IMG/VR virus record: IMGVR_UViG_3300021420_000070
Span: 1-42,659 of that record
Origin: a virus
Length of the DNA stretch: 42,659 nucleotides
Reading direction: 5' to 3' (one strand)
Part shown: positions 38,404 through 41,351 of the stretch, one piece after another
Layout of the letters: every line of letters begins with the position of its first letter
Numbering within the stretch: position 1 is the stretch's first letter
Notes under the pieces: generated by a model
What the model was told of the DNA's origin: nothing
Databases searched by the model: none
Seen by the model: only the letters and a program-made list of their open reading frames with translations
Program-made: the position numbers and the translations under genes

Positions 38404-38433
38404 AAAAAAATCCCGCGCGGGTCAGGCGCGGGA
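38404..38433 (-). terminator. Rho-independent terminator of the leftward AAA+ operon
   Basis: Read on the minus strand: an 8-bp stem TCCCGCGC/GCGCGGGA (38433-38426 and 38418-38411), 7-base loop, then seven T's (38410-38404). It is 33 bases downstream of the gene that ends at 38467, so it closes the minus-strand module. A second hairpin, CCGGGCG/CGCCCGG (38439-38455), lies just before it. On the plus strand there is no T-run, so primase-helicase transcripts are not obviously stopped here. Confidence 0.85.
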
Positions 38434-38466
38434 CAAATCCGGGCGAATCGCCCGGCTAGCGGGGTT

Positions 38467-38826
38467 TCAATTCACGTCGAACGGCTTGCGCGCCACGCTC
38501 GCGTACACGCCCGGCGCGATCTGCGTCCCCTCCGCTTTGATCGCGTCCGCTTCCGCTTCCGTGGTGGCGCATTGCGCTCCAAAGTCGCCACGCTCAAACG
38601 CCGCGTGTAGTTCGCGCGGTCCGCCCTTGTAGATCTGCGCCGCGCGCGACTTGCAACGCTCCACTGCCGCGTCGCGCGTCTCATCGTCAAAATGGCAGAT
38701 GCAGAACTTCGCGGCAGACTCCGCGATTGCCTCGCGCTTCGCCTTGTTGTTGTTGATGAGCATGGCGAGAATCATCATCGTCGCCACGTTTTCGGGATTG
38801 TCGGTTTCCACAAACGTTGTATCCAT
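38467..38826 (-). CDS. Small acidic protein, last gene of the AAA+ operon
   Basis: One hundred and nineteen residues from the ATG at 38826-38824. It is Ala/Glu/Asp-rich with helices around 20-70, and has CICH near 42-45 and two more Cys (58 and 86), without a clear zinc pattern. It shares an operon with the ATPase and VWA-like genes, separated by an 80-base structured leader. Its role with them is unknown; such small partners could be substrates or regulators. Confidence 0.65.
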   Translation of the reverse strand: MDTTFVETDNPENVATMMILAMLINNNKAKREAIAESAAKFCICHFDDETRDAAVERCKSRAAQIYKGGPRELHAAFERGDFGAQCATTEAEADAIKAEGTQIAPGVYASVARKPFDVN

Positions 38827-38840
38827 CGGTGCTAAGTCTC

Positions 38841-38899
38841 CATCGGTTCAAACGATGCCGGTATGGCATCCCTGAGCGCACCCTAGTCGGATGCGCTCA
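38841..38899 (-). promoter_or_regulatory. Structured leader before the small AAA+-operon gene
   Basis: The 81-base gap between VWA-like and small-protein genes contains three inverted repeats. They are TGAGCGCA/TGCGCTCA (38873-38899, 11-base loop), GATGCC/GGCATC (38854-38870) and CATCG/CGATG (38841-38857). The last two share bases 38854-38857 and cannot form together. No T-run follows any of them. Alternative hairpins before a gene suggest RNA-level regulation or processing. Confidence 0.4.
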
Positions 38900-38907
38900 A
38901 GGCTACG

Positions 38908-39735
38908 TTACCCCTGCGATTGCTCTTTGATTGCCTCGCGCATGGCAGCGACTACCGCGCGCGTGTCGCCGCGTTTAGTAGCGTCGCTGACTGCATCCAT
39001 ATCGGGGAGTATCACGGCACCCTCCGCGTCCTGCCCGATTGACGCGACCGCATACTCGCGTGTCGGCGAGCGCACCGAACCGTAGCCGCCATCCGCGACA
39101 CCGATGCGGCACGCGACCGGATCTAACTCGCGCCACGCGAACAACACGCGGCGCAGAAACATCGGATGGAACGCAAACGCGATTTTTGACAAGTCAAGCG
39201 GTTCGCCGAACTGACGCACGGCAACGCTCATGCAATACGTTGACCCTGAGCCGCGCGTCACGTCTAGCGCGTACACGGCAACGTCTACCCCTGCCGCGTC
39301 TAGCTCCGCGACTACCTGAGCCAATGCCGCCGCGTAGCACGCGGCTTGCTCTGCGCTGTACCCGCAGTTATAGATGCACGACACGACAAGCACGACGCGT
39401 TGAATGGTGCCGCGCTCGCCCGGAACGAGCATACATTCCGGATCACCTGCAACGTACGCGCCGACGACGGGCAGGTAGCCTGCTACGTCTAGTTCAAACG
39501 CCGGGCCGTTGTCGCTAGTGACGCCACCGCGCGTGAGCTTCTCAATCTCGCGCACACCCCCAGGCCAACCGAAGCGGAGCTTTTTCATGGCGTCAGCCCA
39601 TGACCCGCCGGACCATTCCGTTGACGTGCGCTGACTTGAGTTGCCGGAATTTGCAGGCCGATCATTCTTGCGCGTCGGCCGATCCTTGACTGTGCGTAGC
39701 AGCGTCGGCCAATCAATTGTTTTGAGTGTACTCAT
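38908..39735 (-). CDS. VWA-like (CobT/DUF7192-type) partner protein
   Basis: Two hundred and seventy-five residues from the ATG at 39735-39733, which overlaps the ATPase stop as ATGA. The middle (RVVLVVSCIYNCGYSAEQAA, then AALAQVVAELDAAGVDVAVY) is the alpha/beta pattern of von Willebrand A domains: a strand, a helix, then DVAVYALD. The classic metal-binding D-x-S-x-S is absent (VSCIYNCGYS instead), as in divergent VWA proteins that accompany MoxR ATPases in phages. It probably forms a complex with the adjacent ATPase. The assignment rests on pattern and pairing. Confidence 0.65.
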   Translation of the reverse strand: MSTLKTIDWPTLLRTVKDRPTRKNDRPANSGNSSQRTSTEWSGGSWADAMKKLRFGWPGGVREIEKLTRGGVTSDNGPAFELDVAGYLPVVGAYVAGDPECMLVPGERGTIQRVVLVVSCIYNCGYSAEQAACYAAALAQVVAELDAAGVDVAVYALDVTRGSGSTYCMSVAVRQFGEPLDLSKIAFAFHPMFLRRVLFAWRELDPVACRIGVADGGYGSVRSPTREYAVASIGQDAEGAVILPDMDAVSDATKRGDTRAVVAAMREAIKEQSQG

Positions 39736-40958
39736 GCGCGCGCTGCCTCTTTGATTTTCTCTACGGTGTCGGTGTCCAGTCCCGCGAACACCGTTGCTGC
39801 TTCCGCTTGTTGCAGCGTGAAGCCTGCCGCGAGCATGGCGCAACCTTGCAGAGTAGCGCGGGGCGTGACCAGTACTTTGACGCCGACTTCAATCACGGCG
39901 CGGCGGATGGACTGTACGCGGCGGACCCATTCGGCACCTGCCGCGCCTGCCAAGTCACGCTCTAACGTTTCGTCGTACGGCATCTCAACACGTATGAACC
40001 GTTGCAGCGTCGCGTTATCCAAGCGATTGCGTCCGACATACTCGGCGGTCGCGCCCGTTCCCCATGTGTTAGCGGATGCGATGCACACAAAGTCTGTATG
40101 CCGCGTGACCATTTTGTCCGGGAAAGCCGCGACGCCGGAATCCATCATGCCGTTGAACGAGTTGATTGCCTTAGCGTCGCTCGCATCGAATTCGTCCCAC
40201 CCGAACACGCCACCAAACTCCCATGCCATGCGTAGCGGCGTCCGTAGCGTTGTTGAATTACCGTTCGGCGACACAAAGCCTATCAATTGGAACGGTGTGC
40301 TGACTGCGCCGGTATACGCATACGGCAGGTTCAATGCTTCGGCGATTTGTGCTGCGAGGTGTGACTTGCCTGAACCGGACGGACCGACAAGCATTACGTG
40401 TTGCCGGCGTCCGCCCGACGGGCGCATGTTGACGTAGCGCAACACCGGTTCAAACACCGCATGGCGATGTGCGGCGGGCAGTGTGTTGACGGTCGCGCCG
40501 TTGCAGGTGATGTCGATTGAGCGCGGCGCGAGCTTCTCAAGTTCCTCGCGCACGACGGCGCGAATGTTTTCCGGATCGGCGGCATTGCCTAGTAGCTCGG
40601 CGAGTGCGTCGGCGAGTGTGGCATCGGTGCGCTTGCGTTGTGCGGTAGCCTGCGTGCGCTCGGACGGTGCGGCGACGGCTGGCGTGTTTTGAATATGGCG
40701 CGACATTGCGCCGTTCACGTTGTCGGAACATTCGTCGCAGAACGTGTCGTCGTCGTGCGAGCAGGGGCAGTCACACTGACTCTTGAGTTTATCAAAGCAC
40801 GCTTTGATAACGTTTGAACGCAAGTCGCCACCGACTTTCGCTGGCGAATATATCCGCCCGTGGTCGCCAGTCACGCCGCACGCAGCCGCTATCTTGAATA
40901 GCGTCCGGATGTCGCACTGATCCGGCGCGAGTTTGAATGTGTTTGAATGGTTGAACAT
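39732..40958 (-). CDS. MoxR/CbbQ-like AAA+ ATPase
   Basis: Four hundred and eight residues. A Cys-rich stretch (CDCPCSHDDDTFCDEC, about 63-78) could bind zinc. The AAA+ core has MLVGPSGSGKSHLA (Walker A, about 187-200), GVFGWDEFDASD (Walker B, about 248-259), CIASANTWG (sensor 1) and NRLDNATLQRFIRVEMPYDE (Arg finger region). MoxR-type ATPases act as chaperones that remodel a VWA partner or its target. GGGGA lies eight bases before the ATG. Related proteins in phages are often labelled CobS-like. Confidence 0.9.
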   Translation of the reverse strand: MFNHSNTFKLAPDQCDIRTLFKIAAACGVTGDHGRIYSPAKVGGDLRSNVIKACFDKLKSQCDCPCSHDDDTFCDECSDNVNGAMSRHIQNTPAVAAPSERTQATAQRKRTDATLADALAELLGNAADPENIRAVVREELEKLAPRSIDITCNGATVNTLPAAHRHAVFEPVLRYVNMRPSGGRRQHVMLVGPSGSGKSHLAAQIAEALNLPYAYTGAVSTPFQLIGFVSPNGNSTTLRTPLRMAWEFGGVFGWDEFDASDAKAINSFNGMMDSGVAAFPDKMVTRHTDFVCIASANTWGTGATAEYVGRNRLDNATLQRFIRVEMPYDETLERDLAGAAGAEWVRRVQSIRRAVIEVGVKVLVTPRATLQGCAMLAAGFTLQQAEAATVFAGLDTDTVEKIKEAARA

Positions 40959-41020
40959 GGTCGCGATTCCCCGCTAGCTTTGGTTGCGGCTTGCGCCGTG
41001 TCGGTGTGTCCGACTTGTCA

Positions 41021-41048
41021 AGCATAGCAGATACGCGCGCTAGCTCAA
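41021..41048 (-). promoter_or_regulatory. Leftward extended -10 promoter of the AAA+ operon
   Basis: On the minus strand, TTGAGC (41048-41043) and TATGCT (41026-41021), 16 bases apart, preceded by TG at the -15 position (an extended -10). It lies 63 bases upstream of the ATPase ATG. The inverted repeat AAGTG/CACTT spans 41048-41063, and ACTTGTCAA is repeated at 41013-41021 and 41059-41067, flanking the promoter. These repeats are candidate operators. Confidence 0.55.
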
Positions 41049-41072
41049 GTGCTTGCACACTTGTCAATAGCC

Positions 41073-41351
41073 GTGGACCCGTGGACCGTCCGTTGACCTA
41101 ACTCGGCGCACAGTCCACTACATAACCTACTGTTAACCCTCTATATGTGGACCTATTACCCATGTGGAGTGTGTTGTGACTATATATGTGGGGTAGAGGG
41201 TATATATGGCCTCTATATAGGTATAGGCAGTAGGGCCCACACCCTCCACACGGTCCACACTTCAGGGGGGTCAAGGGCTTAGCGCGGGGAGGGTCCACGC
41301 TCCTAGGGCAGGGTCCACGGGGTATTTGCACCATTTGTTGCCGTGGTCCAC
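41073..41351. other. Candidate replication origin: GTGGAC/GTCCAC cluster
   Basis: Non-coding stretch of about 500 bases between the AAA+ promoter and the HNH gene. GTGGAC occurs at 41073, 41081 and 41147, and its complement GTCCAC at 41113, 41253, 41293, 41313 and 41346. Chance predicts far fewer than one such hexamer in 280 bases. An AT-rich core (about 41140-41225, with TATATGTGG twice and CTCTATATAG) lies among them. Iterons plus an AT-rich unwinding region in a gene-free gap, next to replication genes, suit an origin. Three GGGAC sites follow at 41450-41479. Confidence 0.5.

Follow-up and report, generated by a model that had tools for sequence, protein, structure and literature searches.

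The closest described system is NorQ-NorD, the chaperone for nitric oxide reductase (NOR), whose complex has been solved (PDB 9qh4, 9qh6, 9qhd). A finger of the NorD VWA domain (residues 403-448) contacts the helix-2 inserts inside the pore of the ATPase hexamer, NorD docks on the ring through its C-terminus, and the adaptor is moved by ATP hydrolysis (PMC13036017). It has been reported that action on the target needs the metal-ion-dependent adhesion site (MIDAS) of NorD, whereas ATPase binding does not (PMC9976466); the finger is N-terminal to the mutated MIDAS residues T534 (PMC9976466) and D562 (PMC9976466). Among viruses, a MoxR-clade ATPase and a VWA protein are likewise encoded as two genes in the CobS-CobT pairs of haloarchaeal tailed viruses and cyanophages, in the MoxR-vWA pairs of group 2.2 jumbo phages, which include a peptidase domain, and in p618/p892 of Acidianus two-tailed virus (ATV), a MoxR ATPase with its VWA co-chaperone (PMC4124505). 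Here, these systems were compared with a gene unit at positions 38,467-40,958 of the virus record IMGVR_UViG_3300021420_000070, a record of linear class that was analysed over its whole length of 42,659 bases and is called the window below. The unit consists of exactly three open reading frames on the minus strand, encoding an ATPase, a partner protein of the DUF7192 family and a small protein (Table 1).

We consider it probable that the ATPase and the DUF7192 protein form a NorQ-NorD-type MoxR/VWA protein-remodelling machine with a dedicated, MIDAS-less and reduced VWA adaptor, an assignment that concerns the class of the machine and not its target. It was drawn from the family assignments of both proteins, their near-obligate pairing and correlated divergence, the independent Foldseek matches of the two predicted structures and the family-wide loss of MIDAS. 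A preliminary description of this DNA had proposed structure prediction of the pair as a check. The single-chain models independently matched proteins that belong to the same solved complex, namely NorQ for the ATPase and the VWA domain of NorD for the partner. Because the stop codon of the ATPase gene overlaps the start codon of the partner gene in an ATGA, the two genes very likely form one operon.

The ATPase scored 40 bits against Pfam AAA_5 (cut-off 22) and is a member of PHROG_249, which carries the database label "porphyrin biosynthesis"/CobS. Its AAA_5 domain has Walker A, Walker B, sensor 1 (ASANT at residue 294) and sensor 2, a PRA motif stands at residue 366, and the catalytic motifs are conserved among 41 sequences. 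The core, which had been described as canonical, is thus complete with all motifs present, and by sequence and predicted fold the protein is a complete MoxR-clade AAA+ ATPase of the NorQ/CbbQ/CobS branch. Its nearest solved sequences were midasin, CobS, CbbQ and NorQ. In the AlphaFold2 (AF2) model, the predicted local distance difference test score (pLDDT) was above 90 in the AAA core, while the N-terminus was of low confidence; the top 21 Foldseek matches of this model were all NorQ or CbbQ, with template modelling (TM) scores by target of 0.69-0.75. By analogy with NorQ, residues 222-241 are a likely helix-2 insert region, a pore element of the MoxR clade with which the finger of the partner would make contact. 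This region, which was placed by position, contains the invariant G227 and G233, which is conserved in at least 90% of the 41 ATPase sequences. An N-terminal Cys cluster had also been pointed out earlier. It is present, but it lies in the low-confidence region of the model and is not conserved among relatives, some of which have scattered CxxC or CxC motifs and most of which have none, and a zinc-binding Cys cluster was therefore rejected as a defining feature.

The partner matched Pfam DUF7192 with 82.4 bits (cut-off 27). This was the sole model over its cut-off, no Pfam VWA model matched the protein, and no mention of DUF7192 was found in the literature searched. In the databases, DUF7192/PHROG_1909 and PHROG_249, of which the two phage proteins are members, are listed apart and without a joint function. 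The AF2 model of the partner (pLDDT 86.9, predicted TM-score 0.82) retrieved the NorD VWA domain as top match from the PDB with Foldseek (E 1.8e-4, probability 1.00), and the later matches were mostly other VWA folds. In the viral library, DUF7192 proteins came first, followed by phage CobT/VWFA proteins, to which DUF7192 is structurally similar. The absence of D-x-S-x-S from a VWA-like partner, already noted in the preliminary description, was confirmed, as S-x-I-x-N stands in its place. Among 62 non-redundant DUF7192 sequences, the first MIDAS position is Asp in 13 and a full D-x-[ST]-x-S is found in 3; according to this alignment, the MIDAS motif is lost family-wide.

Two segments of the partner, residues 78-106 and 177-205, are the most conserved in the conservation profile. 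The first is a strand-helix-strand element immediately preceding the first core strand (DSSP of the AF2 model), with an invariant G86, nearly invariant G97 and M102, and a strongly conserved P99. Because of this position and because it includes several of the most conserved residues, it was read as a putative NorD-like finger. The second segment is a candidate docking or target-binding surface.

The pairing of the two genes was followed in 80 viral contigs retrieved via ATPase alignment. In 76 of them, the next gene after the ATPase on the same strand encodes DUF7192; of the other four, two have DUF7192 elsewhere on the locus and two end inside the ATPase gene. Ten named phages retrieved around the ATPase also have DUF7192 downstream. 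These carriers are Gordonia phage Kudefre, Rhizobium phages RHph_X2_24 and P106B, Sinorhizobium phage phiM5, Tunturiibacter phage Tunturi_4, Staphylococcus phage GH15, Listeria phage LP-125, Lactobacillus phage 3-521, Acinetobacter phage YMC13/03/R2096 and the uncultured crAss-like phage cr118_1; one or two small genes separate the pair in RHph_X2_24, P106B and Lactobacillus 3-521. The divergence of the ATPase correlates with that of DUF7192 (r=0.80 over 61 pairs), a value reached by none of 2000 permutations, the largest of which gave 0.20. The ATPase is therefore genetically coupled to its VWA-type partner, and the two form a near-obligate operon. Phages of Staphylococcus, Listeria, Mycobacterium, Gordonia, Rhizobium, Acinetobacter and Lactobacillus carry the same two-gene unit, as do a crAss-like phage and many environmental ones. 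Apart from the pair itself, every gene family is confined to 14 or fewer of the 61 loci, and no third conserved component adjoins the pair.

Samples of bacterial genomes from two phyla had DUF7192 in 1 of 397 and 0 of 399; the latter search returned no match of any kind, so that its zero is weak evidence. The lone bacterial match (genome G367, L101:9391-12468) is also paired with an ATPase, and its neighbours, which include pantothenate kinase and ferredoxin-like genes, look chromosomal. The G367 ATPase has 709 residues, and on visual inspection its long N-terminal extension resembles a glutamine-amidotransferase-like domain. Mycobacterium phage Finemlucis has the pair and a second DUF7192 gene (L006:1041-1892 and L006:4740-5591), and one ATPase copy was seen on that stretch. 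Stenotrophomonas phage Philippe was discarded as a false relative, since its match is short, confined to the P-loop region and annotated as a ClpP-like protease. A profile scan of genome contigs gave two weak P-loop matches among the matches listed and was uninformative on distribution.

Several results weigh against the NorQ-NorD-type assignment. Against NorD, the partner reaches low TM-scores of 0.24-0.34, and beyond the third core strand its model is mostly helical and without clear strands; for these two reasons, the modelled partner would be at best a reduced VWA and not a full one. No match was obtained when PDB sequences were searched with the partner by hmmsearch. A profile comparison of DUF7192 with two plasmid VWA proteins (hhalign) found no sequence homology, and DUF7192 was accordingly rejected as their direct homologue. 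Furthermore, the target and the timing are approached by indirect evidence throughout.

NorQ-NorD is nevertheless the best fold match for both phage proteins, and the likeness extends to a separate ATPase and VWA adaptor and to a probable finger-like element before the first core strand. The phage partner differs from NorD in having 275 residues without the N-terminal domain, the long linker and MIDAS, in a C-terminal half that is mostly helical, and in the absence of a NOR substrate. The other systems differ in other respects. CobT is described with MIDAS (PMC8651126) and the jumbo-phage vWA protein with an N-terminal metallopeptidase (PMC7824862), both of which DUF7192 lacks. The ATV pair, which was compared by description only, belongs to an archaeal virus and is tied to extracellular tail growth. 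An operon of large plasmids encodes a MoxR-family ATPase with about 27-36% identity to the phage ATPase; however, it is a three-gene unit (MoxR-family ATPase, DUF3150, peptidase-VWA) whose VWA protein has an intact DxSxS and an HExxH-type peptidase motif. Two such operons (L091:4857-9327 and L092:4839-9278) lie near recombinase or toprim genes.

If the pair works in the manner of NorQ-NorD, the ATPase would, as its fold suggests, assemble into a hexameric ring, on which one DUF7192 adaptor would dock. The structure match and the conservation point to a finger (about residues 78-106) that would thread the pore against the helix-2 inserts, and ATP hydrolysis might then twist or pull the adaptor. 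An adaptor without MIDAS could nevertheless function, because the MIDAS of NorD is dispensable for ATPase binding; since MIDAS is lost, the target would be held in another way, by a non-MIDAS surface that possibly includes residues 177-205, and would be remodelled there. In the weakest step of this scheme, the target would most likely be a host or phage protein complex outside the late programme, rather than the virion, in the setting of DNA metabolism, takeover of the host or removal of an inhibitor. Read as a MoxR/VWA motor whose adaptor lacks MIDAS, the pair offers a concrete molecular hypothesis, with a finger in the pore and non-metal target binding, and it makes testable the question of which protein complex so many unrelated phages must dismantle or rebuild. 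A bolder version, which we put forward only tentatively, is that DUF7192-MoxR forms a distinct, phage-specialised MoxR/VWA class, in which the adaptor was cut down to a finger and part of the fold, metal-dependent target binding was lost, and one common host or defence complex is remodelled early by unrelated phages; reports of 'cobS' as an auxiliary metabolic gene in this family would then be a misannotated host-takeover motor.

For the target, takeover or counter-defence appears to have about the same likelihood as replication, and virion assembly a lower one. The first possibility is an attack on a defence complex of the host, or exclusion of superinfecting phages with the pair as anti-phage cargo; both roles, like the remodelling of replication proteins, had been suggested in the preliminary description. 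Bacterial conflict systems use MoxR-vWA cores, some with vWA proteins lacking the MIDAS aspartates (PMC7159879), and both the broad distribution and the position outside the packaging operon agree with such a role. It stays doubtful, as PADLOC families gave weak P-loop matches alone for the ATPase and none for the partner, and no effector or third component adjoins the pair. Retention of the bare pair in many lineages would also be less typical of a specific anti-defence gene than of a function with wide use. A known defence system was rejected, because no PADLOC family covered a substantial part of either protein; the third conserved component of a VMAP-type vWA-MoxR ternary system was likewise not found among the 61 loci.

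Equally tentative is a role of the pair in remodelling the replication or recombination machinery acting on the phage's own DNA. In the window, the module has VapE/helicase/VRR-NUC genes on one side and an origin-like repeat cluster on the other; elsewhere it adjoins genes for DnaB, DNA polymerase or a processivity factor, and the plasmid relatives have recombinase and toprim neighbours. On the other hand, no replication neighbour is constant across the loci, and the carriers differ in their replication systems. The unit had been described as opposite in strand to its replication neighbours. This is correct for the helicase, VRR-NUC, VapE-type and HNH genes, which are on the plus strand, but RecE/RecT are on the minus strand like the module.

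That the pair is a chaperone remodelling a structural protein in head or tail maturation is less likely still. The one studied viral MoxR-VWA pair does act in tail development, with ATV p618, a major virion component, binding p892 (PMC4124505), and virion assembly has also been predicted for the group 2.2 jumbo-phage pairs (PMC7824862). In RHph_X2_24 and P106B, the module even has head and tail genes around it, although these are encoded on the other strand. The same orientation was found throughout: in 44 of 44 cases, neighbouring TerL, TerS and portal genes are encoded on the strand opposite to the pair, and in the window, whose terminase, portal, major head and tail-like genes are on the plus strand, the module is likewise opposite to the terminase block. 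Because the packaging neighbours are always on the other strand, membership in the late morphogenesis operon is disfavoured, an argument from orientation and not from expression. Several isolates have the pair among nucleotide-metabolism and DNA genes. In GH15 the module lies at 20.6-22.6 kb, while the late promoters of a related Kayvirus are mainly at 36-66 kb (PMC7698491), an approximate comparison as the genomes differ. The main text of the Listeria and Kayvirus transcriptome papers has no usable statement on the timing of the ATPase gene.

The proposal that the genes are auxiliary metabolic genes for a CobS-CobT cobalt chelatase raising host vitamin B12 synthesis, which draws on the PHROG_249 label, on CobS being among the nearest solved sequences of the ATPase, and on suggestions that viral CobST hijacks host CobN (PMC8651126) or feeds B12 synthesis (PMC11705849), is very improbable, since NorQ and CbbQ are better by fold, the partner is a DUF7192 protein without MIDAS while the hijack proposal concerns CobT-type partners with MIDAS, CobN was absent from all 20 related phage records (possibly fragments, with host CobN still possible; control positive in 5), and CobT_C had no match in the present phage (control genomes positive). 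Because a vitamin B12 function is often given for this ATPase, caution is advised against counting the pair as cobalamin metabolism in virome studies.

Table 1 Features of the ATPase-DUF7192 unit in the window (all coordinates are window positions)
Feature	Position	Strand	Basis or remark
MoxR-clade AAA+ ATPase, 408 aa (PHROG_249, Pfam AAA_5)	39732..40958	-	Pfam, PHROG, AF2, Foldseek
Partner DUF7192/PHROG_1909, 275 aa, degenerate VWA-type adaptor	38908..39735	-	Pfam, PHROG, AF2, Foldseek
Small protein, 119 aa, GC content at third codon positions (GC3) 0.78, coding-like	38467..38826	-	Open reading frame; probably passenger gene
ATGA shared by ATPase stop and partner start	39732..39735	-	Sequence; translational coupling likely
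Walker A GPSGSGKS, ATPase residues 192-199	40362..40385	-	G192 and K198 invariant in 41 sequences
Walker B VFGWDE, ATPase residues 251-256	40191..40208	-	D255 and E256 invariant in 41 sequences
Likely helix-2 insert region, ATPase residues 222-241	40236..40295	-	Inferred by position relative to NorQ as described in PMC13036017
N-terminal Cys cluster CDCPCSHDDDTFCDEC, ATPase residues 62-77, lineage-specific	40728..40775	-	Possible zinc site
MIDAS D-x-S-x-S loop position, here S119-x-I121-x-N123 of partner	39367..39381	-	Family alignment
Candidate pore-inserting finger, partner residues 78-106, strand-helix-strand	39418..39504	-	DSSP of model, conservation, position relative to NorD finger
Second strongly conserved segment, partner residues 177-205 (D181, H190-P191, R195-R196, F199)	39121..39207	-	Conservation profile
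Two strong hairpins without U-tract, between partner and small gene	38827..38910	-	z -3.96, 0/200 shuffles
Intrinsic terminator of unit	38410..38434	-	9-pair stem then seven T; fold z -3.7

Two further observations concern neighbours and records of the pair. In the phiM5 record, a small frame inside the ATPase gene (L004:1349-1546) is listed as detected in the phage particle proteome; the peptide may have been assigned wrongly, or the ATPase locus may have a link to the virion. The gene before the ATPase on the same strand encodes, in seven loci, a PHROG_6361 protein of unknown function with a peptidase-like HELVHVY motif (e.g. L011:4135-4749).

The preliminary description had viewed the three genes as one phage module with its own promoter, structured leader and terminator. 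The two-gene MoxR/VWA-like part of this view stands and is common to very diverse phages. By tblastn, however, 50,697 phage records gave no match to the small protein even with the threshold at E 10, and the 61 loci share no small gene beside the pair; for these reasons, a three-gene module is not supported, the small protein was ruled out as a conserved component, and its gene is probably a passenger. The terminator is real and lies 32 bases beyond the last stop codon of the unit. The promoter was rejected as not above chance, as one weak site was found in 3.4 kb against 1.2 expected, and this site lies within the ATPase gene. The leader at 40,959-41,070 folds somewhat better than its shuffles (z -2.5, 3/200), but it is not the strongest structure of the unit, which is formed by the hairpins at 38,827-38,910 (z -4.0 vs -2.5), a possible processing or attenuation element.

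The repeat cluster beside the unit lies at 41,073-41,351, where eight GTCCAC/GTGGAC hexamers occur in about 280 bp, out of 31 across the window; the maximum in 300 Markov simulations was 4 per 281 bp. These hexamers flank a stretch that is relatively rich in AT and contains TATATATG-like repeats, and from its sequence the cluster is a candidate replication origin or operator region.

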